From positions 1-64,000 of the forward strand of contig JAKQPS010000081.1 of assembly GCA_029564595.1 (NCBI GenBank): 64,000 bases of DNA, read 5' to 3'. The notes beneath the pieces are model-generated. The model ran no database searches and was not told where the DNA came from. It saw only the letters and a list, made by a program, of their open reading frames with translations. Within the stretch, counting starts at the first letter, position 1. Each line of letters opens with the position of its first letter. Origin of the DNA: a bacterium. Lineage in GTDB: Bacteria; UBP15; UBA6099. The translations under genes were made by a program, and so were the position numbers. Below are positions 1 to 30,626 of the stretch, one piece after another.

Positions 1-1251
1 ACAAAACCCAATGCGCCGTCGTTCGTGAAGCCTAACGGAAAAAAGCGGCATAAGAAACCGGGCCGACCGCACGGACACAAGGGTTGCTCCCGAGAGAAAC
101 CTTCCGATGCGGATGAAGAAATGAATCTTGCGATTTCCCATTGCCCGGATTGTGGCGGCTCGCTTGCAGCCCCCTGCGATGTTCGCGAGCATGTGCAAGA
201 GGACATCGTTCCGGCAAAAAAGAAAGTGACAGTGTACCGCAGATACCGATACTGGTGTGCTTGCTGTAAAAGAATTGTTGAAGCTCCGCCTGCGGAAGGA
301 GAAATCCCCAACGCGCGCATCGGGCCGGCGGCTGTCGCGTGGAGCGTCATGCTCAAGCAGTCCCTCGGACTGCCGTTCGGAAAAACAGCCCGTCTTCTGG
401 AGGATTTGTGCGGCCTTAGGGTCAGCCCCGGAGCTCTGGCGCAGGCTGCCCAACGCGTCGCCGGCAGACTCTCTCCTGAAATTGATTACATCACAGAAGC
501 CGTTCGCGGCAGCCCGGCGGTCAACGTGGACGAAACCGGCTGGCGAGTCGGCGGGCGAAACCACTGGATGTGGGCTTTCGTCACCGACCGGCTCACGCTC
601 TACCGCATCGTTCCCAGCCGCGCCGGTAGAATAGCAGTGGAAGAACTCGGCAAAGATTTCGCAGGCGTGGTGGTGGCGGACTTCTTCAGCGCCTACAACA
701 AACTGTCCTGCGAACAACAGAAATGCACCGTACACCTTCTGCGCGAGTTGAGGGATTGCGCGAAGAAGAACAAAACCTCGGAATTCGCAGCGTTCCGCAA
801 GAGTCTCAAGCGCATCATCGCCGACGCAATGCGCCTTGTCGCAAAAAAAGACTTCGACCCGTCTTCGCACGAGAACTTGATATTACGACTGCATGACCGC
901 GTTTACTCGCTCGCTGTCGCAGATTACATAAATCCTGACTGTCGCCGCTTATCGAAGAGACTGTGGCAACACGGTGAAAATCTTTTCACGTTTCTTTCAT
1001 ATCCCGGCGTCGTTACCCCTGACAACAATCGCGCCGAGCGCGCCATACGCCCAGCGGTTGTTCTGAGAAAAATCTCCGGCGGCAGCCGCACCGCCAACGG
1101 CGCTAACGCATCTGCCGACCTGTTGAGCCTCTCACAGACATGCCGCCTCAACGGCGTCAGCTTCGTTCCGTTCCTCCTCAAAGCTCTCCGTCATCATCTA
1201 TGCAATTTTCAAGGTTCTGTGCTCTGTGATACACTTGTTTCACAAAGCTAA
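1..1251 (+). CDS. IS66-family transposase, 5' end cut by window
   Basis: Transposase of the IS66 family, a DDE recombinase acting on the ends of its own element. The frame is open from base 1 and an early GTG lies at 25; the first residues (TKPNAPSF) and the following KKPGRPHGHKG match the N-terminal part of IS66 TnpC, so the true start lies upstream. A zinc-finger-like CPDCGG and later CACC follow. Candidate catalytic acids are Asp in NVDETGW (codon at 529), Asp in VVADFFSAY (679) and Glu in NNRAERAIRP (1036). The C-terminal SADLLSLSQTCRLNGVS stretch is also typical of the family. No frameshift is seen in the visible part. The small IS66 accessory genes tnpA and tnpB would lie upstream, outside the window. 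Confidence 0.93.
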   Translation, partial: TKPNAPSFVKPNGKKRHKKPGRPHGHKGCSREKPSDADEEMNLAISHCPDCGGSLAAPCDVREHVQEDIVPAKKKVTVYRRYRYWCACCKRIVEAPPAEGEIPNARIGPAAVAWSVMLKQSLGLPFGKTARLLEDLCGLRVSPGALAQAAQRVAGRLSPEIDYITEAVRGSPAVNVDETGWRVGGRNHWMWAFVTDRLTLYRIVPSRAGRIAVEELGKDFAGVVVADFFSAYNKLSCEQQKCTVHLLRELRDCAKKNKTSEFAAFRKSLKRIIADAMRLVAKKDFDPSSHENLILRLHDRVYSLAVADYINPDCRRLSKRLWQHGENLFTFLSYPGVVTPDNNRAERAIRPAVVLRKISGGSRTANGANASADLLSLSQTCRLNGVSFVPFLLKALRHHLCNFQGSVLCDTLVSQS

Positions 1252-1259: not shown

Positions 1260-1534
1260 CAAGATTTAAACAAAGCAAAACTCCTTTTCAAAGCGACATC
1301 CGGCGAAATAGTTGATGTATGTTGCGCGAGCCGCGCAACTATGCGAGAATGTCTTCGCGTTATTTATTGAAAAGGCTGCCGGGACAAATGCTGTTGACAA
1401 TAGCCCCCGACCCAGCCTTGCAGGTCGCGAACGATTATGGAAAGGTTGCGTTGCGACAGCGGATTCGCAGCCTGACGGGGCGTCGCCGCCCCGAAGAGCT
1501 GCCGGGCTATGCCGCTCTCGCTCGTTCTGCCCCG
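1260..1534 (+). other. Spacer between IS66 element and first radical SAM gene, with two hairpins
   Basis: No convincing gene. The frame of the next gene is open back to 1319, but that extension is low-complexity, Arg-rich and unlike the family. Two perfect inverted repeats are present: GTTGCGCG/CGCGCAAC at 1321-1339 with a 3-nt loop, and CGGGGCG/CGCCCCG at 1476-1493 with a 4-nt loop. Neither is followed by a T tract. Confidence 0.4.
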
Positions 1535-2914
1535 ATGAAAGTCGCTCTGGTCTTCCCAAGAGAAACAAACATGGCGACGGTCCCCAACTTGGGCTTGGGA
1601 TATCTGTCGGCAGTCGTTTCGAGGGAAGGCTTCGAAAACAGAATATACCATTGCGCGAAAGAAAAGCTCGATCCCGACGGTTTGGCCGCTTCGCTCCTCG
1701 AATTCAAACCCGATGTCGTCGGACTGCAGTCTTATTCCTTTTTCCACAACAAAGCAAGACGCGCGGCGGCGGTCATTAAATCCAGTTTGCCCGATACGAA
1801 AATTGTCATCGGAGGCCCTCACGCCTCCGGGCTTCCCCGCTCAGTTCTTTCAGAAGAGCCGGCCTTCGATTTCGGGTTTTCCGGAGAAGCGGAAATTGGT
1901 TTCCCCGCGCTGTTGCGGCTGCTGGCCGGAGACAGAACCGACAAACGGACTATACCGGGATTGATATGGCGAGACGGCGGAACAATCAACGCAAACCCCC
2001 AGCAGTCGGTAAAAGACCTCGACTCGCTGCCTTTTCCTGCTTGGGACAAAATGGATGTCAAAAGATATCCTCACCATGCGCATGGAGTTTTCGCTCCCGG
2101 TTTCCCCGTTGTTCCGATGGCTTATTCAAGAGGATGCAATTACAACTGCTCCTATTGCGCGGCGAGAACAATCTCCGGACCCGGCGTCAGATATCGCTCC
2201 CCTGAAAATATGATTAAGGAAATTGAATACGTCTATTGCGAGCTTGGCGTCAAAGTCGCGTCGTTTGTCGATCAGAACCTGACCGCGAACAGAGAAGCGG
2301 CGATGCGATTGTGCGACGGCCTGATAAAATCGGGCTTCAATCTCAAGTGGTACTGTCCGAACGGCGTCTATCTAGATTCATTGGACGATGAGTTGCTGGA
2401 GAAAATGAGCGCGGCTGGGTGCGAGTCCATTGCGGTGGGAATCGAATCTGCTTCTTCCGGATCCCTGAAATCTCTAGGCAGAAAAGCTCCCGACTTGAAA
2501 GATGTTCGTGAAAAGCTTCTTTTGATAAAGAAACGCGGCATCGGCGTAACAGGAAATTTCATGTTAGGTTTACCGGGAGAAGATGAGAAGGATTTCAGAA
2601 ACACATTCTCCGCCGCCCTGAAGCTGCCGCTAGACAGGGCTCAATTCGCCTTCTTTGCGCCTTTCCCCGGCACTCGCTTTTTTTTAGAGCTTTTTCCGGA
2701 TTCAACTGCCGACTGGGACGATTTCAATGTGATCGCGCCGAATTTCATTGCTGCTCCCCTGCGAAACAAAGCGCGGCTGCTGATGATTGCGGCCTTTTTG
2801 TTTTTCTACGCCCGGCCCGCCGTCTTCTGGAGAAACCTAAGAGAAATCAGGTCGGCCAGACACGCGGCCTTCGTTCTTTCAAAAATAATCAACATCGCCA
2901 AGATATTAAAGTAA
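1535..2914 (+). CDS. B12-binding-type radical SAM protein
   Basis: Radical SAM enzyme of the class with an N-terminal cobalamin-binding-type domain; substrate unknown. The start at 1535 (MKVALVFPRETN) is chosen because such proteins usually open with a beta strand of this kind; an in-frame extension to 1319 looks non-coding. Residues 1 to about 140 form the B12-type Rossmann-like part with VIGGPHASGLP and an FSGEAE segment. The radical SAM core follows, with the 4Fe-4S motif C201-x3-C205-x2-C208 after SRG and an IGIES-like segment (VGIESASSGSLKSLGRK). The C-terminal tail is basic and hydrophobic. It resembles enzymes acting on lipids, bacteriochlorophyll or secondary metabolites, but no substrate can be inferred. 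It is followed by a related gene on the same strand. Confidence 0.88.
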   Translation: MKVALVFPRETNMATVPNLGLGYLSAVVSREGFENRIYHCAKEKLDPDGLAASLLEFKPDVVGLQSYSFFHNKARRAAAVIKSSLPDTKIVIGGPHASGLPRSVLSEEPAFDFGFSGEAEIGFPALLRLLAGDRTDKRTIPGLIWRDGGTINANPQQSVKDLDSLPFPAWDKMDVKRYPHHAHGVFAPGFPVVPMAYSRGCNYNCSYCAARTISGPGVRYRSPENMIKEIEYVYCELGVKVASFVDQNLTANREAAMRLCDGLIKSGFNLKWYCPNGVYLDSLDDELLEKMSAAGCESIAVGIESASSGSLKSLGRKAPDLKDVREKLLLIKKRGIGVTGNFMLGLPGEDEKDFRNTFSAALKLPLDRAQFAFFAPFPGTRFFLELFPDSTADWDDFNVIAPNFIAAPLRNKARLLMIAAFLFFYARPAVFWRNLREIRSARHAAFVLSKIINIAKILK

Positions 2915-3034
2915 TGATTGGTTGCCTTTTTTTTCTTGGCATGGATATGTGTTTTTGCATACCGCATGTTTTGAACAAACGGCAAATTGTTCGGACTAAA
3001 TCCAAATGACATACTATTATGATTAAATCAAACA

Positions 3035-3040
3035 TATAAT
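3035..3040 (+). promoter_or_regulatory. Possible -10 element before second radical SAM gene
   Basis: TATAAT in an AT-rich stretch 58 bp before the chosen ATG at 3098. No good -35 lies 16-18 bp upstream, so this is weak support. Confidence 0.22.
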
Positions 3041-3097
3041 ATGCGCAGGCGAGGCAATGCGCCTTATAATCGGCGTCTCAAGAGGTGTTCTGCGTTG

Positions 3098-4390
3098 ATG
3101 AACTACAAATTCAGAGTTTGTCTGATGTCTCATTCAAGCGGCGAAAAACTTTCGGCTTACGGATACGGCCCCGCTAAACTTTTAGCCGCAGCCAAAGAAA
3201 AGTTGCTGGAACCTGACGTAAGAATTTCTTTTTTTGATTTGAAAGAGAACTTCGGGGACACGCAACAAGACGTTGAGATTGTCAGAAATGAAAACCCTGA
3301 TATTCTTGGATTGTCTGTTTTTCTCTGGAATTTCGATAGGGTGGAAAATATTCTTTGCAATATAAGAGAAACCCTTCCTGACACTATTATCGTATTAGGC
3401 GGTCCAAACGCGCCGGGGTACGAATTATTATCGAAACAACCATGGCTTCCCGATTTTATTGTGACCGGTGAAGGGGAAGAAGCGTTCGTGTCCATTGTGA
3501 AAAAACTTGTCGACGGAAGTCTTAGGTCCTTGGACAGTATCTCCACAAAAACGGATATGCGAAAAAAGGGTCTCTTCAAACCGCAAATATTGTCGGGCTG
3601 CGCGCAGTCTCTTGAATCATCGCCTTCTCCGTATTTAACCAATGTTTATGTCCCCCCGGGTGAATTAGTTTACATGGAGACTAGCAGAGGCTGCCCCAAC
3701 CAATGCTCATTTTGTGTCAGCGGAAACGAACGGGCGAAAATCAGGTTCTTTAGCCTAGACATAATTCGAAGAGAAATCGCATGGGCATTTGAGAATTGTA
3801 AAAAAAACATCAATTTCTGCGACGCTGCGCTTAACTATAACAACAAGCGCCTTAAAGAAATCGCGCAAGCCGCGTTAGATGTCGACCCTTCTGGAAAACT
3901 GTCTTTCACTTTCGCTCTTCACGCGGATCATCTTTCCGCGGCGCAGATAGAAATTCTATCGAGACTTAATATCGCATGCGCCACCATGGGGCTTAACTCG
4001 ACGAACCCCGCCACATTCGACACGGTCAAAAGATCAATTGATCCGGAAAAGTTCAAAGAAAAAGTCTCGTTGCTGAAAAAACTGCCTAACTCCAATATCA
4101 CAATCATGATGGGCCTTCCCGGCGACACTGTGGATGGATTTAAAAGAACTTTGGAGTACTGCGCGTCTCTGGATGTTCAAATCAACTGCTATGAATTAAG
4201 AGTTTTCCCCGGAACGCTATTTTTCGACAACGCTTCGCGATTCGACCTCAAATATGATTTATCTGACGGCCTTAAAGCGCTTTCATGCTTCAGTTACAGC
4301 AATGACGATTTGAATTCGATGCGAGAGTTGTTCGAACAATACGCGGCGTCATCGAAAAGATTCGTCCGCGGCGACCAAACGCCGCTATAA
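3098..4390 (+). CDS. B12-binding-type radical SAM protein
   Basis: Second radical SAM enzyme with an N-terminal cobalamin-binding-type region. The ATG at 3098 (MNYKFRVCLMSHSSG) is preferred over an in-frame start at 3041 because AGAGGTG lies about 10 nt upstream and the family-like strand begins here. Residues 1-140 contain VLGGPNAPGYE and VTGEGEEAF, typical of the B12-type half. The cluster ligands are C199, C203 and C206 in SRGCPNQCSFC. A later TIMMGLPGDT segment is the usual glycine-rich loop of these enzymes. It lies 183 bp after the preceding radical SAM gene, same strand, possibly co-transcribed. Substrate unknown. Confidence 0.87.
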   Translation: MNYKFRVCLMSHSSGEKLSAYGYGPAKLLAAAKEKLLEPDVRISFFDLKENFGDTQQDVEIVRNENPDILGLSVFLWNFDRVENILCNIRETLPDTIIVLGGPNAPGYELLSKQPWLPDFIVTGEGEEAFVSIVKKLVDGSLRSLDSISTKTDMRKKGLFKPQILSGCAQSLESSPSPYLTNVYVPPGELVYMETSRGCPNQCSFCVSGNERAKIRFFSLDIIRREIAWAFENCKKNINFCDAALNYNNKRLKEIAQAALDVDPSGKLSFTFALHADHLSAAQIEILSRLNIACATMGLNSTNPATFDTVKRSIDPEKFKEKVSLLKKLPNSNITIMMGLPGDTVDGFKRTLEYCASLDVQINCYELRVFPGTLFFDNASRFDLKYDLSDGLKALSCFSYSNDDLNSMRELFEQYAASSKRFVRGDQTPL

Positions 4391-4567: not shown

Positions 4568-7500
4568 TCACTGGCACGGGCAACACAACACTTTGAGCGT
4601 TGCGAACTGCGGAACGCCGCTGCCGAAATACAAAGAAGCGTTGTCGTGTCTTGCCGCGGCTTCCGTTTCGTTCGTTGAGCCGTTCACTGCGGCTATCGCG
4701 CAGAAGCCAGCCGCGCATGTTGTATCTTGAGCTGTGCCAGACAATGTTGTTGTCGTAGCCGAAAAAGCGCAGTTGGTGTGCGATTTATCAAGCGAAAGAT
4801 TATATGTCCTGTTGGCTGTCAGATCTTGTGTTTGAGATGTGGTGCTGTTAACGAGTATTCCATTGCTTGTGGCCAGCGTTATCGATCTGCCGGCATGAAC
4901 CGCATCGTCCGTCGAGTTCGGCGCTCCAATATTCTCCACTCTGAAGCCGCCCATGTTTAGGGACCCGTGGAAGTATGCCACATCGCTGTTATGCATCCAG
5001 TGCAAAACTTCCGTGTCCACCCCAGCGGTTCGCCTGTATATTGAAATTGCGTCTGTGGTTGTGCTGGAAGCTGGCGTTCCGTCTCCGTTGTAGATTATGC
5101 CGCCGCCATAAGTCGTGCTCTGCCCGACAAACACCCTTCCCGTTCCTTGGCTGGCTCCGTAAAGGCTTATCGTTGCTTCCTCGGCGTCAGCTCTGCTGAT
5201 GACGAGATTGCCCGTCATTGTGTCTCCGGCTTTAAGAACATAAAGGCCGTCTGTATAGGTCGTGTTTAGAGAAATAGTTCTATTGGCGGTTAGGTCTCCT
5301 CCGCCGGAAAGTCCGGTTCCGGCGGTGATTGTCCTATCCGCGCGCACGGCATGCCCCGTTCCGGTTGCTTGTGTTCCCAAGGTTAATAGTCCGGTCACAG
5401 TTCCTGTTCCGGATGCGTCAAGATTTACCGTGTACGCAGCGCTGTATCTGAGGGCGGAGGTTCCGAGGGTGTATGTATTGGTTACCGTCGGGTTAATCTG
5501 TCTGCCTTGCAATGTGCCCGTCATCGTGTCTCCGGCTTTAAGAACATAAAGGCCATCGGTATAAGTCGTGTTTAGCGATATCGTCCTGTCAGCGGTTAGA
5601 TTTCCTCCGCCGGAAAGTCCGGTTCCGGCGGTGATTGTCCTATCCGCGCGCACGGCGCTGGTCGTGGCAGTTCCGGCTTGGCTAAGAGTAACTGTCTGTA
5701 TATATGCGGTTCTGTATCTTAGTAATGTGGTGCCAAGATCGTATGTGTGATCCGTTGTGGGATTCAACTGCTGGCCTTGCAATGTGCCCGTCATCGTGTC
5801 GCCAGCCTTAAGAACGTAGAGTCCGTCGGTATAAGTCGTGTTTAGCGAGATTGTTCTGTTGGCGGTTAGGTCTCCTCCGCCGGAAAGTCCGGTTCCGGCA
5901 GTGATTGTTCGATCCGCGCGAACCGCGTGCCCCGTTCCCGTCGCTTGTGTTCCCAAGGTTAATAGTCCGGAAACGGTTCCCGTTCCTGATGCGTTAAGGT
6001 TTACCATGTACGCCGTGCTGTATCTGAGAGCGGAGGTTCCGAGGGTGTATGTATTGGTTACCGTCGGGTTTAACTGTCTGCCCTGCAAAGTTCCCGTCAT
6101 CGTGTCTCCGGCTTTCAAAACGTAGAAGGAGTCAGTGTAACTTTTATCCAGCGCAACCGACCTCGCGGTTGAGCCATCGTATGCGGTCAGTAATATCCCT
6201 GTGCCAGCCGTTAACTGAGCGTGCGTGTGGGTCGCCGCCGCAAAATCAGCAGCGTGATATCCGTCCAACATGTCCGCGTTCAGGTTTGTCACTAATGTTG
6301 TGGATGCCACCGTCAGGGGGGCTGTGCCAGTGACTATCGTGGATATAAACCTTGTTCCCGTAATTGTGTCTGACCCTGTTATAGTTCCCGTCACTCCCAG
6401 CGTTCCGCCTATCGTCGTGTTGCCTGATATGTTCGCCGTGCCAGACACGTTAAGCGCGTATGTTCCGGGGGCGACGCCTATCCCAAGCCTGCTGTTAGCG
6501 TTGTCCCAATAGAGATTTCCGGATGATATCGTGCTGGCCGTGTTCCAGTATGTCACCCTGTCCGCCGTGCCTGAACCTGTCACCATCCCGGTGTGCGTGT
6601 GGTCTCCCCTTGCCGCCTGATCTGTCCCAACCCCGAAATCCACAGCCCATGTCTGCGCAGCCGAACCGTCGTAGTTTGAACCGGTCAATCCTGTGCCACG
6701 CGTCAATGTCGCGTGCGAGTGCGTCGAAGCGGCGAAGTCAGAAGCGTGATATCCGTCCAGCAAGTCCGCGTTCAGGTTGGTCACTAATGTTGTGGATGCC
6801 ACCGTCAGAGGGGCTGTGCCAGTGACTATCGTGGATATAAGCCTTGTGCCCTGCACCGTGCTAGACCCCGTTATCGCTCCCGTCACTCCCAGCGTTCCAC
6901 CTATCGTCGTGTTGCCTGATATGTTCGCCGTGCCGGACACGTTAAGCGCATATGTTCCGGGAGCGACCGCCACGCCCAGCCTGCTGTTAGCGTTGTCCCA
7001 ATAGAGATTTCCGGATGATATTGTGCTTGCCGCGTTCCAGTATGTAACCCTGCCAGCCGTGCCTGAACCGGTCACCATCCCGGTGTGCGTGTGGTCTCCC
7101 CTTGCCGCCTGATCTGTCCCAATCCCGAAATCCACAGCCCATGTCTGCGCAGCCGAACCGTCGTAGTTTGAACCGGTCAATCCTGTGCCACGCGTCAATG
7201 TCGCATGCGAGTGCGCCGCCGCCGCAAAGTCAGACGCGTGATATCCGTCCACCATATCGGCATTAATCGCCATCGCATTTGCCGCCATTCGCTGTCTTGG
7301 CGAATATGTGGTTCCTGCCACCGTCACTTCAAGCCAGAATTCTCCTGTGTTGAAATCAAGCGTGTCTAAATCCGGAGTCCCGCCGCTGAGCAGCGCGCTG
7401 AATAATCCGTTGCTTACAACAACAGTGGTCGCGCCGGATGTCCATACAGCCGCTCCACCTGTGTCAACGGAATAAATTCTGAACGTCATGCTGTAGCTAT

Positions 7501-7636
7501 TGTCGGCTATCGGCATTCCATTTGAGTCAGTAAGCCGCCCTTGGTAGTTAAGCGTCTTGTCGAAATTGGCCATCGCCGACTGTGTGCCCATAGCGATAAT
7601 CGCGACTGAGACTAATAGGATAAACTTTTTTGACAT
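4568..7636 (-). CDS. Large secreted repeat protein, tail-fibre/adhesin-like
   Basis: Exported protein of 1022 residues with a clear signal peptide (MSKKFILLVSVAIIAMG, cleavage near TQSAMA). The first domain (LNYQGRLTDSNGMPI, then FRIYSVDTGGAAVWTSG) is an N-terminal type seen in secreted bacterial proteins that precede fibre repeats. Two 164-residue repeats follow, containing DGYHASDFA, ATLTRGTGLTG and GDHTHTGMV, then a third partial copy, then three units starting VRADRTITAGTGLSGGG and continuing GLYVLKAGDTMTG. The tail carries several cysteines and ends CCPCQ. This resembles phage tail-fibre and surface adhesin repeats, so a surface fibre is likely. GAGG lies about 8 nt before the ATG. It is opposite in strand to its radical SAM neighbours. 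Confidence 0.8.
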   Translation of the reverse strand: MSKKFILLVSVAIIAMGTQSAMANFDKTLNYQGRLTDSNGMPIADNSYSMTFRIYSVDTGGAAVWTSGATTVVVSNGLFSALLSGGTPDLDTLDFNTGEFWLEVTVAGTTYSPRQRMAANAMAINADMVDGYHASDFAAAAHSHATLTRGTGLTGSNYDGSAAQTWAVDFGIGTDQAARGDHTHTGMVTGSGTAGRVTYWNAASTISSGNLYWDNANSRLGVAVAPGTYALNVSGTANISGNTTIGGTLGVTGAITGSSTVQGTRLISTIVTGTAPLTVASTTLVTNLNADLLDGYHASDFAASTHSHATLTRGTGLTGSNYDGSAAQTWAVDFGVGTDQAARGDHTHTGMVTGSGTADRVTYWNTASTISSGNLYWDNANSRLGIGVAPGTYALNVSGTANISGNTTIGGTLGVTGTITGSDTITGTRFISTIVTGTAPLTVASTTLVTNLNADMLDGYHAADFAAATHTHAQLTAGTGILLTAYDGSTARSVALDKSYTDSFYVLKAGDTMTGTLQGRQLNPTVTNTYTLGTSALRYSTAYMVNLNASGTGTVSGLLTLGTQATGTGHAVRADRTITAGTGLSGGGDLTANRTISLNTTYTDGLYVLKAGDTMTGTLQGQQLNPTTDHTYDLGTTLLRYRTAYIQTVTLSQAGTATTSAVRADRTITAGTGLSGGGNLTADRTISLNTTYTDGLYVLKAGDTMTGTLQGRQINPTVTNTYTLGTSALRYSAAYTVNLDASGTGTVTGLLTLGTQATGTGHAVRADRTITAGTGLSGGGDLTANRTISLNTTYTDGLYVLKAGDTMTGNLVISRADAEEATISLYGASQGTGRVFVGQSTTYGGGIIYNGDGTPASSTTTDAISIYRRTAGVDTEVLHWMHNSDVAYFHGSLNMGGFRVENIGAPNSTDDAVHAGRSITLATSNGILVNSTTSQTQDLTANRTYNLSLDKSHTNCAFSATTTTLSGTAQDTTCAAGFCAIAAVNGSTNETEAAARHDNASLYFGSGVPQFATLKVLCCPCQ
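5220..6120 (-). repeat. Three in-frame repeat units within the fibre-like gene
   Basis: The DNA block around CCGCCGGAAAGTCCGG recurs at 5301, 5607 and 5877, spaced 306 and 270 bp, both multiples of three. Each unit encodes RADRTITAGTGLSGGG followed by TTYTDGLYVLKAGDTMTG. Unit edges are approximate. High DNA identity implies recent duplication or gene conversion. Confidence 0.8.
6246..7250 (-). repeat. 492-bp in-frame repeats within the fibre-like gene
   Basis: The anchor GCGTGATATCCGTCCA/C recurs at 6252, 6744 and 7236, exactly 492 bp (164 codons) apart. The two full copies encode almost the same protein segment (DGYHASDFA to LVTNLNAD); the copy starting at 6252 is divergent and partial. The repeat is protein-coding, not a CRISPR or intergenic element. 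Confidence 0.85.
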
Positions 7637-16865: not shown

Positions 16866-17795
16866 TCAGCGGGAATCGCAGCAAATCGGATGAAACTCTT
16901 TTTCTCCAAAATGCTCCACGTATTCTATCCTCGGACCGGGACAACGGTCATTGAACGCGCATTGCGCGCAGGCCTCCACATGGCGGCCCGACTCGAATGG
17001 AGAGTCCTCCGCTTTGAACGCCCTTCCGTCTGGCATAACAATCATCAGCCCCAGCGAAGCCACGGCGTAGTACATTTCCGGCCTGTTGCCAAGCATGCAG
17101 GGCGGCACGTGGGTAGTCATCGCTTTCGCCCCAAAAACATCCGCCGCAGCCGCAGCTCCCGCCGCCGCAACTCCGGCTTCCGTCATTGTAGGAACCATCT
17201 TTTCGCCCCGCCCGCCCGCTCCGAATATCGAATACAGCCACATGTCGAATCTGCCTACCCCGACCTTGCAGAAGTCTTCAATCAATCCCGCCTCCATGCC
17301 GACCGAAACAGAACTCATCAAGAAATCTATTTTTACTTTCGCGCCGTAATGGAGGAGATGTTTGACGCCCATTTCAGTCATTTCGAAGGCCCCAGTCCGC
17401 CCTGCCATCCAGTCATGCGTCTGAGGGTCGCGCCCCCAGATTGAAACTGAAAAGGAATCCGCTCCCGCCGACACGCACGCCTTTGCGAATTCGGGATAGC
17501 AGAATCTTATTCCGTTTGTTTTCACCTCTACAGATGAAAAACCCGCCTCTCCCGCAGCCTCAATAATCGAAATAAAATCGGGATGGATCGAAGGCTCTCC
17601 GCCTCCGAGAATAACCTTTGAAACTCCGTTTTTTAAGTAATCCGACATAATCCTTTTTGCTGATTCCAATGTCATTTCGCCTGAGAAGCCCTGCCCGGAA
17701 ACGCAAAATCTGCAATGAGCGTTGCACTTGCTGAATATCGTCAATTCAATGCCGTTCAAGCCGGAATTCCTTTCTTTCGACTGTCCCTCGCGCAT
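16866..17795 (-). CDS. Radical SAM protein, MoaA/PqqE-like with CX2CX5C tail
   Basis: Radical SAM enzyme of 309 residues. Cluster ligands are C24, C28 and C31 (KCNAHCRFC), followed by ILGGGEPSIHPDF. It shares the SIWGRDPQTHDWMAGRTGAF segment, the counterpart of the SLHG/HD/GAF signature of its paralogues, and a C-terminal CAQCAFNDRC plus PGPRIEY. An alanine-rich insertion (AAAGAAAAADVFGAKA) sits before a TTHVPPCMLG stretch whose cysteine may be a further cluster ligand. It is the middle gene of a three-gene minus-strand set: fused double radical SAM, this gene, methyltransferase, with gaps of 39 and 14 nt. Substrate unknown. Confidence 0.87.
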   Translation of the reverse strand: MREGQSKERNSGLNGIELTIFSKCNAHCRFCVSGQGFSGEMTLESAKRIMSDYLKNGVSKVILGGGEPSIHPDFISIIEAAGEAGFSSVEVKTNGIRFCYPEFAKACVSAGADSFSVSIWGRDPQTHDWMAGRTGAFEMTEMGVKHLLHYGAKVKIDFLMSSVSVGMEAGLIEDFCKVGVGRFDMWLYSIFGAGGRGEKMVPTMTEAGVAAAGAAAAADVFGAKAMTTHVPPCMLGNRPEMYYAVASLGLMIVMPDGRAFKAEDSPFESGRHVEACAQCAFNDRCPGPRIEYVEHFGEKEFHPICCDSR

Positions 17796-17834
17796 GTTGC
17801 TTTTTCAGTCTCCGGCAGTTCGCGCGCATAATCT

Positions 17835-20081
17835 TTATCGGTCGCTTTTTTCTTTTCCAAAAACATAAAAACCAGCGCATGCCACCGCTGCCGGGCATGC
17901 CTCGCATTCAGTTTTTTTCTTCCTGCGCTGGTCAAGATATTTTCCCAAATTCATCGGCGGGCTGTCCGCAAAAACCATGTCTCTTGAGAACTTCCCGGTT
18001 TCCGGCTCCGTTTCTCCCAAAACATCCCGCGCGATACAATGCGCAAGGTTGATAACTCGAACTTTGAAACGTCCCTTGCGGGCAATGATCGGAGCCGCGA
18101 CGACTTCGGCAAGTTTCCGGGCGTCATATCTATCAAAACCCATCGCGTTTCCGTGCGGGGTTATAAACTGAGCGTTTACGGCCCCGACCCCCAGCGACTC
18201 GAAGAAGGCCAGCATCTCGTCGAAGAAAGGAGCGTTCCATTCGGTGATAGTGGTGTTTATTGAAAACTCCACTCTCTTCGGCTTCAGTTCGACTATGTGT
18301 TTTATTCCGGCCACTGTCTCGTCGAAACTGCCCGCCCTCCTAGTGTGGATTTCATGAAGCTCCGCAGTGTGGCCGTGAATGGAAACAAGAACGCTGGTCA
18401 GTCCGCTGAGAAGGAAGCGGGACGCGGCGCCTCTGTCCGCAAGCTTCCTAGCGTTGGTGGTGACATTGATGTTTTCATATCCAAGCTCGCTCGCCGCCGC
18501 CACAAGAGCCATGAAAGCCGGATGCGCCGTCGGCTCGCCGCCGTCGAAATCCACAGACCGCGCTCCTCGTCTTCGGTACTCCTTTAGATATTCCACAATC
18601 CTCGCCGTGTCGCCATGCGCCCTCTTTCTGTCTCCCACAGCGCAGAACACGCAGTCGTTCGAGCATTCGTATGTCAGGTTCACTATAAGCTTGTCTAGTT
18701 GCGTATCCGCGAGTCTTTTTCTGAAACAAAACATCATTTCCTTGAGTCGCTCCGCAGGGAACTCCGGCCTGTCGAACGAAGGCTCGCCAGTGAAATGGGA
18801 ATACAACAAGCCGGGATTGAAATCTGACAGCAATCCAAGCTCCTGCGCGCGAGCGTGCATCTCCGACCCCGGAACCGGAGTCGCATATTGAACCAGAGGA
18901 GCGGCCCCGTGCCGCTCCTTCATCGCCATCGCTCTCTCCAGAGTTAGATTAGCCTCTTGGGGAGTCTCAAAAGGAAATCCAATCACATAATGGACCTCCG
19001 ACGCGACGCCCTCCTCGGACATCATTTCAAGCGCTTTTTCCGAATCCCTCAGGGAAAGCCTTTTGCCTATCTTCTCAAGCGTTTTTTCGCATCCGCTTTC
19101 CTCGCTGATTTTTACCCTGCCCGCTATCTTTTTTAGAATTTTGAGATGTTCTCTGGTGACGCAGTCGGCCCTCAGGCCATTGGGAAAATCGCATTTCAGA
19201 TTCAGAGATTCCACGATCTCCAAAACTTTCTGGAACCTATCCTTGTCTAGGTTGGGGGCGCTTTCGAGAAACACGATTTTCTGCGCTCCGAAAGAGTCGG
19301 CATAAGCCTTGAGCGTCCTTTGAACATTCTCAGGGGAAGCGGCCCTCAAAACATGCTTTTTCTGTCCGGGGTTTGACGCGCAAAAAACGCACCCGAAAGG
19401 ACATCCTCTAGTTGTCGCCACAGGCAGAGAACGCAGATAAGGAACTCCCCCTCCTGAACTAAAAACCTTCTCGTAACGCTCTTGGAAAAGGTAATAATCC
19501 TCTAACGATACCAAGTCCCACGCAGGGATTGGAAGTTTGTCCGGAACGACATCGGCCGCGTCGCATTCGAGAGCTGCGCCCGAATTCCTGCGACATCCGG
19601 CCGCCACCCCCGCAATCATCGCTTCCGTCTCATATTTCACCACTGTGTCGATTTCAGGATAGCTGCGCATCAGATCTTTTCCGTCATATTCGATATAATG
19701 CATGCCAGAAAAATAACAGTCCGCAGCGATAAGACAGGCGTCGGGCCACGCGGCCCTCGCCGCCTCGAACACATACGCGCAATGCGCGTTCGCCACGTGC
19801 GGAGACAGAAAAGGCGACACTGCAACGACAACCGTCTCTGCGGCGAACTCCCCGAACCTCTCCGTCAAGTTTTCCATCGGCGCGCCGAGGCTCGCGAAAT
19901 CTTTCTCTTTCACCGCTACAGACGATTTCTCGCAGAATGCGTCCGCCACAGACACATCCATACCCGCCTCCCTTAAAACGGCGGCGTTCGAAACCGCGCC
20001 CAGCGTCAGGTATTGCGGGTAATCGATATAAACCGGCCCAAGCCGCAACGGAGGATTCATCATTATCAGCTTCTTCTTCAT
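17835..20081 (-). CDS. Fusion of B12-type radical SAM and second radical SAM domain
   Basis: Two complete radical SAM enzymes in one 748-residue chain. Residues 1-180 are the cobalamin-binding-type domain (TLGAVSNAAVLREAGMDV). The first radical SAM core carries C227, C231 and C234 (TTRGCPFGCVFC). The second core begins near residue 463 with C473, C477 and C480 (YECSNDCVFC), GGEP at 514-517 and SIHG...LHEI...GSFDETVAGI, matching the MoaA-like paralogues nearby. It ends with CEACPAAVACAG (CX2CX5C). No frameshift or stop separates the halves. The fusion implies two sequential radical reactions on one substrate or within one pathway; this is inference. It heads a minus-strand operon with a third radical SAM gene and a methyltransferase. 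Confidence 0.9.
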   Translation of the reverse strand: MKKKLIMMNPPLRLGPVYIDYPQYLTLGAVSNAAVLREAGMDVSVADAFCEKSSVAVKEKDFASLGAPMENLTERFGEFAAETVVVAVSPFLSPHVANAHCAYVFEAARAAWPDACLIAADCYFSGMHYIEYDGKDLMRSYPEIDTVVKYETEAMIAGVAAGCRRNSGAALECDAADVVPDKLPIPAWDLVSLEDYYLFQERYEKVFSSGGGVPYLRSLPVATTRGCPFGCVFCASNPGQKKHVLRAASPENVQRTLKAYADSFGAQKIVFLESAPNLDKDRFQKVLEIVESLNLKCDFPNGLRADCVTREHLKILKKIAGRVKISEESGCEKTLEKIGKRLSLRDSEKALEMMSEEGVASEVHYVIGFPFETPQEANLTLERAMAMKERHGAAPLVQYATPVPGSEMHARAQELGLLSDFNPGLLYSHFTGEPSFDRPEFPAERLKEMMFCFRKRLADTQLDKLIVNLTYECSNDCVFCAVGDRKRAHGDTARIVEYLKEYRRRGARSVDFDGGEPTAHPAFMALVAAASELGYENINVTTNARKLADRGAASRFLLSGLTSVLVSIHGHTAELHEIHTRRAGSFDETVAGIKHIVELKPKRVEFSINTTITEWNAPFFDEMLAFFESLGVGAVNAQFITPHGNAMGFDRYDARKLAEVVAAPIIARKGRFKVRVINLAHCIARDVLGETEPETGKFSRDMVFADSPPMNLGKYLDQRRKKKTECEACPAAVACAGFYVFGKEKSDR

Positions 20082-24946: not shown

Positions 24947-26077
24947 TTATCTGAACGCCAGAAGCTTCAGATAATGCACCGAAGATATGCCGACTATCAC
25001 AGTGAATAGCGCTCCCGCAAAAATTATCGGAACAAAAGGAATCGGCTCGTAAACCACCGCCCTATCCCCGCCTTTGCCGACAACATCCCTTTTGATCGTT
25101 TCCGCTTCGGCGACGGTTATCCCTTCAGGCGCGACGCGCAGAGACGCCTTGGCGTCCGGCGAGAGCGAATTCAAAAATTCCCTCGTCGGCAGATCGCCTT
25201 CCTTTAGGCCTCCGATGTCGATAGCAATCGTCTGGGCTTTGTTTATGTAATAGTCCGACACAGACCTTATGGCCCCGTAGAAAACCATGAACTTGAGCGC
25301 GTTCAGCGACATATTCGCCAGCATCGCCACGGACTTGTCGAACGACCATCCGTTCATCAGAAAAACCGTCACTGCGAAAATCAAATACAAAATAAAATGA
25401 TTGAGGGCGCTCAAACGACTGTTCACAAATCCGCCCAAAGGCTTCATTATGAAAAACAGAGCCACGATGAACGCCTCCGGCGACAGTTTCTCCAACATCT
25501 GCGCCCTAGAGTTGATCTCTCCGGCAATCAGGTTCATTGTGAAAAACACTATCACATACGACGAAAACACTTTCAGATGCGAAGGCCATTCGGCGATCAG
25601 CTTTGCGGTTGATTTTTTCGCGTATGACACTGACCTCGTAAATGTCGCTGTAGGCAATGTCGATTTAATAAACACGACCGCAGATTTGCAAACGATATAT
25701 ATGATTCCAGCCATAAAGACATTGATAAGAAGCGTGAAGCCGGGAAAATAGCTGAAATATACATGGTTGTAGCATGAAAGCGGGATAAGCAGATTCGCCA
25801 CCACATAAGTCTTAGCGTCGCCTGCGGGCCAGACGCCCGCGCTCCTAACTAAAAATGAAACCACAAAGGCGATCGCTAAATTCAAACCCACTCTTTTCAT
25901 AACTACTAGAGTCGTCAAGTCCCCGGCCATAAGCCCCTTAGTCGCGAAAACGACATAGAAAACCAGCCCCAATGCCAAATAAACCACAATGTCTTTATTC
26001 CGGACTTTGCCTGTTTTTACGTCCGTAACGCTTGCAGTTATCAGAAATAAAAATAATAACAACAATTGAACCGTCAT
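24947..26077 (-). CDS. A24-type prepilin peptidase-like membrane protease
   Basis: Aspartyl membrane protease of family A24 (TadV/PilD/FlaK type), which cuts the leader of type IV prepilin-like proteins on the cytosolic face. The first catalytic region is TDVKTGKVRN (D19, N27) and the second is AGDAK (D87). The protein has 376 residues, longer than a minimal A24 core: an extra half with more membrane segments and a soluble loop (IDIGGLKEGDLPTREFL) before a last membrane helix. There is no N-terminal methylase zinc domain. GAGG lies about 12 nt before the ATG. No prepilin gene is visible nearby; its neighbours are glycan-type membrane enzymes and radical SAM genes. Confidence 0.72.
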   Translation of the reverse strand: MTVQLLLLFLFLITASVTDVKTGKVRNKDIVVYLALGLVFYVVFATKGLMAGDLTTLVVMKRVGLNLAIAFVVSFLVRSAGVWPAGDAKTYVVANLLIPLSCYNHVYFSYFPGFTLLINVFMAGIIYIVCKSAVVFIKSTLPTATFTRSVSYAKKSTAKLIAEWPSHLKVFSSYVIVFFTMNLIAGEINSRAQMLEKLSPEAFIVALFFIMKPLGGFVNSRLSALNHFILYLIFAVTVFLMNGWSFDKSVAMLANMSLNALKFMVFYGAIRSVSDYYINKAQTIAIDIGGLKEGDLPTREFLNSLSPDAKASLRVAPEGITVAEAETIKRDVVGKGGDRAVVYEPIPFVPIIFAGALFTVIVGISSVHYLKLLAFR

Positions 26078-26180: not shown

Positions 26181-26243
26181 CGGAAACTCATTTTTTTGAG
26201 ATTCTTCTCTTTGTGTGCCTTAGAGCCTTTAATAATTATAATT

Positions 26244-28067
26244 ATGGTGAGGCGGGAATGCGACCAGTCTGCGAGGTTGATCTTGATAACGGCTCTCCAT
26301 ATATGCAATTCATGCAACAATAAGTGCATTAAATGCGACAAGACTCGATACGACAACCAATGCTTTCTGCATAAGGCTGATGTTTTGAACAGGCTCCAGC
26401 AAATAAAGGAATCGGGAGTTTCAACCGTAGCTCTATGCGGCGGAGAGCCGACCATAAGCCCGTTTTTTTTCGAAATCGCCCGCGCGGTCGTCGAAAAAGG
26501 CTTGAAGATCGGATTGATGTCGAACGGCAGAATGTTCTCATATAAAAATTTCACTGACGAGTTCGCATGCCTAAACCCGGACTTCATCCACATTACTCTA
26601 CATTCCTCCGACATGGATGTTCATGACCGCATCGCCGGAGTGAAAGGAGCTTTCGCCCAGACCATGTCGGGCTTGCGCAACATCTCCCGGATAATGAAAA
26701 GAATTTGCATACGCACGCCCGTCAACGATTTTAATGTCGACTCTATTGATGATATCCCCAGAATAGCCAGAAGGCTCTGCGTGAACGCCGCTGTGACATT
26801 CTCCGTCGGAACATCCCGCCACATCGGGTGCGGCGGCTACCCTGCAGAGCCGCTCGACATAGCGGCGGCCGCCCGCGCTGTTGTTGACGCAATCAGGAAA
26901 ACAAACGATTCGAACGCGCGCGGCGTTTCAATCGCTATCGAAGGCTTCCCTTTATGTCAGCTTGAAGGATTCCATCATCTATGCGCAGAGCCGACGGATA
27001 AAGACATCGTATTCTCGTGGGAAATGGATGGCGGAGGTTTGAATCCCATGTTTTCAATTCCTGAAGAGCGCGGCAATTCTTCGGAGTGTCTCGTGTGCTC
27101 CAGACGCGCCGGATGTCGCTCGAATTTCAGAGAACTCCGGGTTCCATTCATAGAAAACACGCCGAACTCAGTTGGATATGAGTATTCGAGGACAATCGTT
27201 GCGAATCCGTCTTCAACATGTCCGATAGGAGATGCCGAACGATCGACAATCCATCCGCTTAGAGAAACAGCCCTTCTTAAAGGCGGCGACATCGAGGTGT
27301 ATTCGACTGGCGGAAATTGCGGCTCCGATTCGCTTTACGATATCAAGTTCGTCAAACAGCAACTCTATCTTAATGTGTCGGGGATGAGCAGAAACTTGGA
27401 TTTCAGAACCGCTTTCAGAAGGCTCAAGCTGAGGGATGAATGCGCGGAATGTTACCGCCGCGCATTCTGTTCGGGACTTTTTGAGGCTGTCGAAGGGAAC
27501 GCTTTCTCCGGAATAGAGAAAAAGGAGCTTGATTGGCTTTCTTCCATAAGAGGATCAGTCCTCGACATCGGATGCGGAACCCCTCTTTTTCCGGATGCAA
27601 TAAGACACAAGATATCTGCGGGGGAAATGACCTACCTCGGAGTTGACAAAAACCCCGGCCATTCTCCAGAATTAGAAATATCGGCGGTCGATTTCGAGGA
27701 TTTCGCGTGGGCTGGACCGCCTTTCGACCATGTTATGATGCTAAGAAGCTATAACCACTTCAAGGACCCTCGACTTATCGTCGAAAAAGCGGCCTCTCTG
27801 CTCCGCTCCGGAGGCATGCTCCATATCTTCGACAACTGCCTCTTCGGCGCGCTAAAAAGAAATGTGGTCGATAACCCGACGAACATCGACCGTCATCCTC
27901 ACCAGCATTACAGAAACCACGATTCCGAGGAAGCCGCGGCGCTGATTATGAAACTTGGCTGTTTTGAGATTCTCGATCATATCCCAGTCAGCCCGAGCGA
28001 GGCCAATCAGTGGTTCCTTACTTTGAAAAAATCAAGACCCGCTTATGCGGAGACCAAATCAATATGA
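26244..28067 (+). CDS. Radical SAM-methyltransferase fusion protein
   Basis: Two-enzyme chain of about 607 residues. The N-terminal radical SAM core has C24, C28 and C31 (CNNKCIKC), CGGEPTISPFFF, and TLHS...VHDRIAGVKGAFAQT, the signature of the local MoaA-like group. Two separate CX2CX5C motifs follow (CLVCSRRAGC and CAECYRRAFC), flanking a segment unlike known domains. The C-terminal quarter is a class I methyltransferase: VLDIGCGT at 439-446, YLGVDKNPG, and a late HIFDNCLFGALKRN. The ATG at 26244 is chosen; the frame is open to a TTG at 26196. A radical reaction followed by methylation of the same molecule is inferred. It is the first gene of a plus-strand set with the cysteine protein and the tandem radical SAM gene. 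Confidence 0.85.
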   Translation: MVRRECDQSARLILITALHICNSCNNKCIKCDKTRYDNQCFLHKADVLNRLQQIKESGVSTVALCGGEPTISPFFFEIARAVVEKGLKIGLMSNGRMFSYKNFTDEFACLNPDFIHITLHSSDMDVHDRIAGVKGAFAQTMSGLRNISRIMKRICIRTPVNDFNVDSIDDIPRIARRLCVNAAVTFSVGTSRHIGCGGYPAEPLDIAAAARAVVDAIRKTNDSNARGVSIAIEGFPLCQLEGFHHLCAEPTDKDIVFSWEMDGGGLNPMFSIPEERGNSSECLVCSRRAGCRSNFRELRVPFIENTPNSVGYEYSRTIVANPSSTCPIGDAERSTIHPLRETALLKGGDIEVYSTGGNCGSDSLYDIKFVKQQLYLNVSGMSRNLDFRTAFRRLKLRDECAECYRRAFCSGLFEAVEGNAFSGIEKKELDWLSSIRGSVLDIGCGTPLFPDAIRHKISAGEMTYLGVDKNPGHSPELEISAVDFEDFAWAGPPFDHVMMLRSYNHFKDPRLIVEKAASLLRSGGMLHIFDNCLFGALKRNVVDNPTNIDRHPHQHYRNHDSEEAAALIMKLGCFEILDHIPVSPSEANQWFLTLKKSRPAYAETKSI

Positions 28068-28077
28068 AAGGCGCGAA

Positions 28078-28611
28078 ATGAAAGAAATATTTGAAATCAT
28101 CGACGACTGGGTCGGCACCTTCTGGGTGGAAGTGTTTCCGGTTCTTAGAGGCCTCAGAAGCACAGGCATCGTGGAAATCCCCGACGAGAATGTGTCCCGC
28201 TTCAAGAGTTATCTCGAAGAGAACGACGTGGCTTATCAACTTATCACCGTCTCAGAGCTCAACGAAGAGAGAATAAAGCGAGGCAAAGATTTGTTTCTCG
28301 ACCAACAGCACGAGAACATCTTCTATATCGGAGACGAGGCTCGCAAAGTGAGAATGCTGGTGGAGGGCGACAGGGACAACGATTTCTTCTGCGTCGGCAT
28401 GATGCTGGGTTATCCCGACTGCTGCGTCGCGACTCTTTTCAAAACAGGCACTGAAAGCCTCGACATCAAAGCCCTCAAGAGCAATTTTTCTATGATAGCT
28501 CACATCCCCTGCTCATCCACATGCCCGAGGACAATAGAGTACGACTCCAAGTTAAAAGCAGACAAAGAAAGGTACTTAGAAAAAATCGCGAACGGCCGGA
28601 ACTGCCTGTGA
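28078..28611 (+). CDS. Small Cys-rich protein resembling the DUF483 family
   Basis: Protein of 177 residues with no certain function. The central VGMMLGYPDCC and the later HIPCSSTCPRTIE recall the DUF483 family, found mainly in archaea and in some bacteria. The paired cysteines CC and CxxxC could bind a metal or Fe-S cluster. The start at 28078 (MKEIFEIIDD) is preferred because AAAGG lies about 7 nt upstream; an ATG at 28045 is possible. It sits between two radical SAM genes, 10 nt after the first, and its TGA overlaps the GTG start of the second, so a partner or accessory role for these enzymes is likely. The family call is from memory of motifs only. Confidence 0.75.
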   Translation: MKEIFEIIDDWVGTFWVEVFPVLRGLRSTGIVEIPDENVSRFKSYLEENDVAYQLITVSELNEERIKRGKDLFLDQQHENIFYIGDEARKVRMLVEGDRDNDFFCVGMMLGYPDCCVATLFKTGTESLDIKALKSNFSMIAHIPCSSTCPRTIEYDSKLKADKERYLEKIANGRNCL

Positions 28612-30626
28612 AACAGAAGCGCGGCGCAGAAGCAAACGCTAACGAGAACGAGGAATATTTTTTCTCCCGAATTTGGCGACTAGACGATAAAAGCGCCCCG
28701 CTTCCTGTTTTCGTAGGCGGCTCCTGCAACCTGAACTGCGTCCATTGCCCGGATAAAAGTCTGAACTCGCCGGGCGAAGCTGATAGAAAAACTATTTTGG
28801 AGCAGTTAAGCGGCGCGGCGGCGCGGCATGTTCCAGCTATCAGTTTTGTCGGCGGAGAGCCTGCCATACACAAATCTTTTCCGGCTCTGATATCCATAGC
28901 TAAAGAACTCTCTATCCCTTTCATCGGCGCAAGAACAAACGCCATGACCCTGTCTTATCCCGGTCGCGCGGAGAAGCTCCGAGACATAGGACTTTGCTTC
29001 ATCCGCGTGTCAAACTTCTTGTCCGACCCCGTCGCTTTCGACGCTTTGACACGAACTCCCGGCTCCCATGAAAAAGTCCGATCCGGAATACTGAACTCTC
29101 TCGCCGCGGGACTGGAGGTTTCCATTTCAATTCCAGTCTTCAACCAGACCATTTCAAAAATCGATAAAGACATCGCCAGCATATTGGACCATTTTGCAGG
29201 CATAAAAGCCATCGATTTAAGCTTTGTATGCGGCGGCGGACGCGCGCCCTCTATTTCTGAAGCCGAAAGGATTCTTCCTGCTTTAGTTGAAAGGTCTTTC
29301 GGCTTGGGGATACCTTTGACTTTCGCCCCTTTCGAAGGAATTCCTCCTTGTCTTTTTTCGGCTCCTGAAACCCTGATCCGCGTTTTTAGATATCCTGCCG
29401 CGTCGTATTTTCCAAGACGCGCGTTCAAGAAAACCCCTTCTTGCGCGGAATGCCCTCTGGATTCTTTGTGCAACGGCGCAAGGGAGGAATATGAGAGCCT
29501 GCTATCAAGGCCCGGTTTCAAAACGCCCGGCCCGCATTTCTCCGCCGCTCTCGCAAGAAGTTCTGTTCTGACAACACAGGGAACCACAAGGGATTCTCTC
29601 AGAGAAAAATTGCCCGCGGAGGGAAATGCCGTCACCATATCCTTCAGAAGCGTGGGAAACGCGGATCCGATAGTCAACGATTGCGTGGTGAGGACAAACT
29701 TCAGATGCAATCAGGATTGTCTATTCTGCTTCGTCGACACGCGCGCCGCCGATCCGCCGGACTTGATTTTTGAAAACACTGCCCGCGAACTTAAAGATTC
29801 TAAAAAAACGATCAGCATAGTTTCTTTCAGCGGCGGCGAACCGGCAATGAACCCGCGTCTTGCCGATTTCGTTTCGATGTTCAGAGAAACAGGAGCGCTT
29901 GAGATTTGCGTTCAGACAAACGCGTCCCTTATTAGCGGCGAGTTGGCGCGCGCGCTGGCAGAGAGCGGAGTCGATAGCGCATTCGTGTCTTTGCACTCAT
30001 GCGACCCGGCGGTCTCCGACATGATAACCGGCCTGCGCGGCGCGTTTCGAAAAACTTTAACAGGAATAGAAAACTTGTCGGCCAACGGCATTTTCGTGTA
30101 CATCAGCCATGTGATCAATTCGTTCAACTTCTCCTCGCTTCCCGCGTTCGCCTCATTCGTCGCCGAAAAGCTGGGCCGCGCGCCGATTGTGTTCTCTTTC
30201 GCCGCGCCCCACACAAATGAAATGATGTTCGCCGGTTCCATACCGTCATTGTCCGTAGTCAGAGGCCCCTTGAGGGAATCTCTGGAAATATGCCTTTCGG
30301 AGAAAATTCCGTTTTCGGGTCTTCCCGGGATGTGCGGCCTGCCCCTGTGCGTTCTCGGCCCGGATCTGAGATACTACCCGGACATTCATAGAGTGAGCCA
30401 AGAATCCTTGCAGGGGACAATGCGCAAACATTCCGGATGCGCCGAATGCGCGATGAACGATTGGTGCTATGGATTAAGAGAGTTTTACGCGGATAAGAGA
30501 GGCATGGGAGAACTGACCCCTCTAAAAAACGCCGCTTTCTCTCCCAAACCTCGCGACATCCTGAACAGACTTGAATTCTTTCGGTCCTTCTATGATGAAG
30601 AACGCAATGCGAATGTCGCGTCGTAA
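28608..30626 (+). CDS. Tandem radical SAM protein with two catalytic halves
   Basis: Single 672-residue chain with two radical SAM domains. The first carries C40, C44 and C47 (SCNLNCVHC), FVGGEPAIHKSFP and a closing CAECPLDSLC. The second carries C367, C371 and C374 (RCNQDCLFC), SFSGGEPAMNPRL, SLHSCDPAVSDMITGLRGAF and a closing CAECAMNDWC. Both halves belong to the local MoaA-like group with a CX2CX5C tail, so the gene probably arose by duplication and fusion. The first half lacks the SLHG-type segment, having RVSNFLSDP there, so the halves may differ in substrate or one may be structural. GTG at 28608 overlaps the preceding TGA (GTGA), a typical coupled start; the frame is open to 28521 without family similarity. 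Confidence 0.88.
   Translation: MKQKRGAEANANENEEYFFSRIWRLDDKSAPLPVFVGGSCNLNCVHCPDKSLNSPGEADRKTILEQLSGAAARHVPAISFVGGEPAIHKSFPALISIAKELSIPFIGARTNAMTLSYPGRAEKLRDIGLCFIRVSNFLSDPVAFDALTRTPGSHEKVRSGILNSLAAGLEVSISIPVFNQTISKIDKDIASILDHFAGIKAIDLSFVCGGGRAPSISEAERILPALVERSFGLGIPLTFAPFEGIPPCLFSAPETLIRVFRYPAASYFPRRAFKKTPSCAECPLDSLCNGAREEYESLLSRPGFKTPGPHFSAALARSSVLTTQGTTRDSLREKLPAEGNAVTISFRSVGNADPIVNDCVVRTNFRCNQDCLFCFVDTRAADPPDLIFENTARELKDSKKTISIVSFSGGEPAMNPRLADFVSMFRETGALEICVQTNASLISGELARALAESGVDSAFVSLHSCDPAVSDMITGLRGAFRKTLTGIENLSANGIFVYISHVINSFNFSSLPAFASFVAEKLGRAPIVFSFAAPHTNEMMFAGSIPSLSVVRGPLRESLEICLSEKIPFSGLPGMCGLPLCVLGPDLRYYPDIHRVSQESLQGTMRKHSGCAECAMNDWCYGLREFYADKRGMGELTPLKNAAFSPKPRDILNRLEFFRSFYDEERNANVAS

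Follow-up and report, generated by a model that had tools for sequence, protein, structure and literature searches.

Analysis of a 64,000-nucleotide stretch of bacterial DNA (the window) together with related genomes confirmed an enzyme that carries two different radical SAM active sites in a single chain, a B12-type core followed by an HxsC-like core, and that is conserved in three bacterial phyla. On balance, we consider it probable that this two-core protein, with its two independent radical SAM sites, serves as an accessory maturase in an enlarged version of the His-Xaa-Ser (HxsABCD-type) peptide-modification system. An earlier note on this DNA had correctly recognized that a single chain unites two whole radical SAM cores belonging to different classes; it missed the link to the His-Xaa-Ser genes, which supplies the likely substrate, and its reading is supported in part.

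The two-core gene is read from position 20081 to 17835, starts with ATG and contains no internal stop; its coordinates had been given exactly before, with the minus strand omitted. The probability that 748 codons of such base composition remain open is ~6e-16, and the uninterrupted frame claimed earlier recurs in a 96%-identical copy from a separate assembly (L014, JAKQBV) as well as in remoter full-length copies. Pfam assigns two Radical_SAM domains (PF04055), each with its own CX3CX2C motif, and the cysteines C227/C231/C234 and C473/C477/C480, the GGEP motif (residues 514-517) and the C726-X2-C729-X5-C735 tail were all found where the earlier note had placed them. A fourth conserved auxiliary cysteine, C682, had been overlooked, and these four cysteines are predicted to bind one additional Fe-S cluster. 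Of 33 aligned proteins, 31 retain both CX3CX2C motifs and 32 retain GGEP. Comparison of the window gene with L014 gave dN/dS values of 0.18 (Rossmann part), 0.16 (first core) and 0.14 (second core), indicating that all parts of the protein are maintained and that purifying selection acts on both halves.

Features of the two-core gene and of its neighbours (positions in the window)
Feature	Position	Strand	Remarks
Two-core radical SAM gene	17835..20081	-	748 aa, stop codon counted in
Rossmann domain of cobalamin-binding type, residues 1-200	19482..20081	-	weak PF02310 match; fold matches MgmA/OxsB/TsrM/AprD4
First radical SAM core, B12-type class, residues 201-440	18762..19481	-	PF04055 stretch; AprD4/MgmA match
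Second radical SAM core, HxsC/HxsC4/MoaA-like, with C-terminal auxiliary-cluster region, residues 441-748	17838..18761	-	PF04055 at 467-601; NF038332; SkfB/SuiB/viperin fold
First CX3CX2C, C227/C231/C234	19380..19403	-	kept in 33/33 aligned relatives
Second CX3CX2C, C473/C477/C480	18642..18665	-	kept in 31/33 aligned relatives
Auxiliary cysteines C682, C726, C729, C735	17877..18038	-	nearly invariant; retained even with the second core dead
Single-core radical SAM protein, 309 aa	16866..17795	-	co-directional, 40 bp downstream of the two-core gene
Class I SAM-dependent methyltransferase, 238 aa	16228..16944	-	PF08241; third gene of the same-strand run
HxsC-like radical SAM fused to methyltransferase	26196..28067	+	TIGR03977 E=1.3e-24, below cut-off
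Two B12-type radical SAM genes	1319-2914, 3041-4390 (1319..4390)	+	orthologues in L039 (same genus) adjoin hxsD-hxsB-hxsA
Secreted repeat/surface-type protein	4568-7636	-	one of the left-end genes

Structure prediction of the full chain and a search for the same two-domain order, both of which the earlier note had proposed as checks, were run here; the model shows both cores, and the search found the same architecture in other genomes. The AlphaFold2 model, built from a 12-row alignment, is confident (pLDDT 87.4, pTM 0.85) and shows two barrels, with a Rossmann domain at residues ~1-180, the first barrel at ~210-440 and the second barrel plus a C-terminal extension at ~460-740. Residues 1-460 match AprD4 (Z 26.7 over 412 residues, 3.8 A), MgmA (Z 25.5) and CysS, OxsB and TsrM (Z 22-24), and the cobalamin-type Rossmann domain precedes the first radical SAM core, as in the class B architecture. 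The cobalamin-type domain of the earlier note is supported by its fold (Z 22-27) and by weak sequence matches to the Pfam B12-binding family (PF02310; E=0.093 for the window protein, 1e-4 for the best relative, weak in 6 of 12 relatives). The position of the usual GGxHxT is occupied by SGMHYIEY, D121 is present in 32 of 33 aligned relatives and His128 in most. Based on the model, the N-terminal domain likely binds cobalamin; the fold does not decide on methylase activity, because its closest match, AprD4, is a non-methylase.

The second part of the model matches SkfB (Z 22.3, 242 residues, 2.7 A), and further fold matches were SuiB, viperin and ChlB. By sequence, the C half scored best with the HxsC4 model NF038332 (E=3e-36), at 125.2 bits against a cut-off of 500, and the HxsC model TIGR03977 gave 64.5 bits against 267.9. 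The seven-cysteine SPASM motif with two auxiliary clusters is absent, and only C682 and the CX2CX5C tail are conserved. No protein-specific family name was found for the chain, which partially matches 55 NCBIfam models; the best 25 lie far below their cut-offs, and the CofG/CofH families are absent among these 25. No PDB chain was found to match both cores by sequence, and none of the structure matches listed for the model clearly spans both barrels.

The same two-domain order was found in the window's lineage, in Elusimicrobiota and in Myxococcota. In the window's lineage, relatives occur in three genera, in one of them only as contig-edge fragments of both ends, and the full-length relatives in the window's order are 96, 50 and 35% identical. 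The gene is present in 4 of 294 Elusimicrobiota genomes (two copies are 58-61% identical to a third, and one is distant) and matches 64 of 282 Myxococcota genomes at E<=1e-35, with ~45 of these copies being full length and mostly 34-41% identical. A profile search of 386 mostly unrelated genomes returned nothing outside the window's lineage at E<=1e-60. Searching for related loci with peptide patterns yielded just six, because both patterns were narrow, and the Myxococcota majority came from the whole-genome search. The term "uncommon" used in the earlier note hence applies to the architecture in general, but not to the two-core family, which is conserved in about one fifth of the sampled Myxococcota. 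The tree of the N half agrees with that of the C half (Mantel r 0.95), the two sharing 11 strong splits against a single conflicting pair, as expected for one old fusion that was inherited as a unit. A TGA inside the L012 match was considered as selenocysteine and rejected, as it is the terminal stop of a closed reading frame.

Some genomes, several Myxococcota among them, have exchanged or lost one of the modules. G356 and G362 encode the N half on its own, their C half being joined to the single-core radical SAM protein that elsewhere follows the two-core gene; G548 and G418 instead combine the N half with a methyltransferase in one chain. In one G405 gene the first core is intact and the second, having lost its cysteines, is dead, and in another gene of this genome the first core is dead and the second intact. 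G061 encodes one protein in which the first core is intact but the second dead, and, separately, another whose second core is intact. As judged from the sequences, these swaps and reciprocal losses suggest separate active sites that serve one process. The coupled chemistry envisaged in the earlier note is plausible and gains support from them; the reaction of each core and the use of cobalamin are inferred. Beside a distant two-core homologue in G145, another gene (L054, 8321-10705, minus strand) combines B12-type and HxsC-like cores with motifs at 226 and 507, and is perhaps an independent fusion of the same kind.

The genomic setting is the chief result and accounts for the protein better than its fused architecture. 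The literature discusses HxsB and HxsC as putative enzymes for the maturation of His-Xaa-Ser peptides (PMC9062424). In the Elusimicrobiota loci L016, L052 and L053, the gene order is hxsD, hxsB, hxsA4, a radical SAM-methyltransferase gene, the two-core gene and the 309-aa radical SAM gene. HxsB of L016 scores 525 bits with TIGR03978 (cut-off 370), HxsA4 (NF038313) is above cut-off in L016, L052, L053, L042 and L148, and the tail of the L016 HxsA4 consists of successive HGS repeats with a final W. HxsD is above cut-off in L016 and reaches 30-45 bits against a cut-off of 50 in the window's lineage. Among the 282 Myxococcota genomes, 64 carry the two-core gene and 96 carry hxsB, with an overlap of 61; that is, hxsB is found in 61 of 64 carriers versus 35 of 218 non-carriers (odds ratio 106; Fisher p 9e-33, a value that is too optimistic because genomes within a phylum are related and not independent). 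Nine Myxococcota genomes have both genes on one contig, 1.6-25.3 kb apart, where ~0.65 would be expected. In the window's lineage, all four genomes with the two-core gene or fragments of it have hxsB over the cut-off, and G006 has neither.

The window's own genome encodes an HxsB of 476 bits on contig C99, together with hxsD and three H-rich HxsA-like genes, whose products end in ..SHGSW or ..SHASW; the two that were scanned match no HxsA model. In G003, of the same genus, the left-end genes of the window (the two B12-type genes and the secreted-type protein) directly adjoin hxsD-hxsB-hxsA x3, from which it follows that contigs C147 and C99 are probably neighbours, with the two-core gene roughly 20 kb from hxsB. 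At the contig edge, the window carries an IS66 transposase (25-1251, plus strand; NF033517, 283 bits), a usual cause of such breaks and probably also that of the one before the hxsDBA locus. Homologues of the window genes 30681, 39807 and 41301 flank an hxsDBA cluster in G005. Three tandem HxsA-like genes with 28-31 His each and tails of the kind ..SHGSW or ..SHASW occur in L038 (4430-7078), L039 (9425-11942) and L041 (8016-10894), and these H-rich genes probably form a new HxsA subfamily, judging by sequence. The two-core gene is absent from 35 of 96 Myxococcota and 71 of 74 Elusimicrobiota genomes with hxsB, and from G003, indicating that it is optional. G145, which has the distant two-core relative, gave no hxsB match at E<=1e-90.

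An orthologue of the 309-aa radical SAM protein follows the two-core gene in six of six loci with room for it in the window's lineage and Elusimicrobiota, leaving out the near-identical L014. In Myxococcota, a gene of this type follows in L097, L121, L122, L124, L128, L131, L142 and L149, and the two-core gene lacks a downstream single-core partner in L123, L125, L126, L129, L130 and L146. A methyltransferase, whose orthology to that of the window is not certain, lies in the same place in L121, L122, L124 and L131, and in Elusimicrobiota a radical SAM-methyltransferase gene of the same kind as the fused HxsC-like gene of the window lies directly upstream of the two-core gene.

The surrounding region is unusually dense in radical SAM genes, with 14 cores in 12 genes over 43 kb (1319-44289), and also holds a U32-like protein (38657-39682) and several large membrane proteins. 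It includes a second two-core gene (28521-30626, plus strand; 701 aa) with two tandem HxsC-like cores (CNLNCVHC at 69, CNQDCLFC at 396), of which L016 has a similar tandem protein (17791-19686). A membrane protein resembling A24 type IV prepilin peptidases recurs in the window (24947-26077, minus strand), L016 (16574-17803), L019 (3970-5148), L040 (7820-9046) and L118 (17410-18001), and EE[AG]K before a hydrophobic segment, common to HxsA proteins, might be a cleavage site for an A24-like enzyme. Secreted-type proteins ending in CCPC, CCPK, CCPY or CCSK edge many hxs clusters in two phyla, with or without the two-core gene (window 4568-7636; L039 3-1613; L040 3-2117; L042 5777-8560; L016 21792-22598; L115, L116 and L118).

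The hxs linkage and the HxsC-like C half point to HxsA, which contains long His-rich repeats of the (HGS)n or H-x-N/S type, as the putative substrate on which both cores would act. Based on its fold, the N-terminal B12-type core is probably a C-methylating or related alkyl-transfer site, and by comparison with its relatives the C-terminal HxsC-like core, together with one auxiliary Fe-S cluster, is probably a cross-linking or oxidizing site. The enzyme would act together with HxsB and HxsD as well as with the methyltransferase and the single-core radical SAM protein encoded next to it. Radical SAM enzymes join C2 of His to Cbeta of residue i+2, as HaaB does, and also C4 of Phe to Cbeta of Ser (PMC11002830). 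By analogy with these triceptide enzymes, the cross-link could run from His(i) to Ser(i+2), a cyclophane that would fit the His-x-Ser spacing. A tentative proposal goes further: one chain would perform C-methylation with its B12-type core and His-Ser type cross-linking or oxidation with its HxsC-like core, both on one set of His-Xaa-Ser repeats, travelling along HxsA as a two-headed maturase in complex with the partners named above. We regard this as possible but rather unlikely in its full form.

The main doubt about a role in HxsA maturation arises because most hxs clusters do without the two-core gene, which would thus either add an optional modification or act on another substrate in the same neighbourhood. 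The latter, i.e. that the protein shares hxs neighbourhoods and modifies the adjacent secreted proteins with Cys-rich tails, a lipid or a small molecule, would agree with the CCPC/CCPK/CCPY-ending proteins at the edge of several clusters (window, L039, L040, L042, L016 and L052) and with the resemblance of the N half to BchE, HpnJ and AprD4, all of which are small-molecule enzymes. However, CC-ending proteins also lie beside hxs clusters without the two-core gene (L115, L116, L118), the Elusimicrobiota gene is enclosed by hxsA4 and additional HxsC-like genes, and the C half, whose nearest family is HxsC4, has the fold of peptide maturases such as SkfB and SuiB, so that we judge another substrate unlikely.

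We find it quite improbable that a single core is catalytic and the other a structural or peptide-binding remnant. AprD4-like enzymes can bear a B12-type domain without using cobalamin, and L055 and L132 have lost the second CX3CX2C yet keep the auxiliary cysteines, as a remnant might; but both genomes in which a second core is dead also encode an intact one in another protein, which in G405 has a dead first core, and the retention of both motifs and of GGEP in nearly all aligned proteins, along with a dN/dS of the second core as low as that of the first, argues for two working sites. An assembly or frame artefact that joined two adjacent genes has a negligible probability: although the halves are separate genes in a few Myxococcota, more than 30 independent genomes, spread over three phyla, share the same uninterrupted frame, and the half trees match. 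A fusion by sequencing join or frameshift was rejected on these grounds, and the stop or frameshift between the halves that the earlier note had allowed for, which would make two genes, is ruled out by the identical frame in independent assemblies.

To our knowledge, the HxsABCD system was found by bioinformatics and its chemistry has not been reported. In the open papers searched, which covered few subscription journals, we found neither a paper on HxsA biochemistry nor any account of a fusion between a B12-type and an HxsC-type core or of such an enzyme in an Hxs system. A conserved two-core enzyme in hxs clusters provides a defined set of maturases with a likely substrate, the HGS repeats, and the natural split versions and reciprocally dead copies show which halves can be assayed apart. 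If both cores indeed act on one peptide, this would be rare two-class radical chemistry in one chain on a peptide natural product.

Among known proteins, those nearest to the two-core protein include HxsB/HxsC (TIGR03978, TIGR03977) and HxsC4 (NF038332), the best family for its C half, and the genes of its relatives lie in hxsD-hxsB-hxsA clusters; it differs from HxsC4 in scoring far below the cut-off (125 of 500 bits) and in its extra B12-type radical SAM module. Residues 1-460 share the fold of MgmA, TsrM, OxsB, CysS and AprD4, which are described with one radical SAM core per chain. Residues ~460-740 resemble the SPASM/Twitch proteins SkfB, SuiB, ChlB and PqqE in fold (Z 18-22) and in having auxiliary cysteines, but there are only four of these, without a seven-cysteine SPASM motif, and the domain is fused behind another core. 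Two radical SAM domains that generate two 5'-deoxyadenosyl radicals in one chain are found in FbiC, the CofG-CofH fusion that acts as F0 synthase (PMC11917521). While FbiC uses its two cores for small molecules, the two-core protein combines a B12-type core with an HxsC-like core that has an auxiliary cluster.
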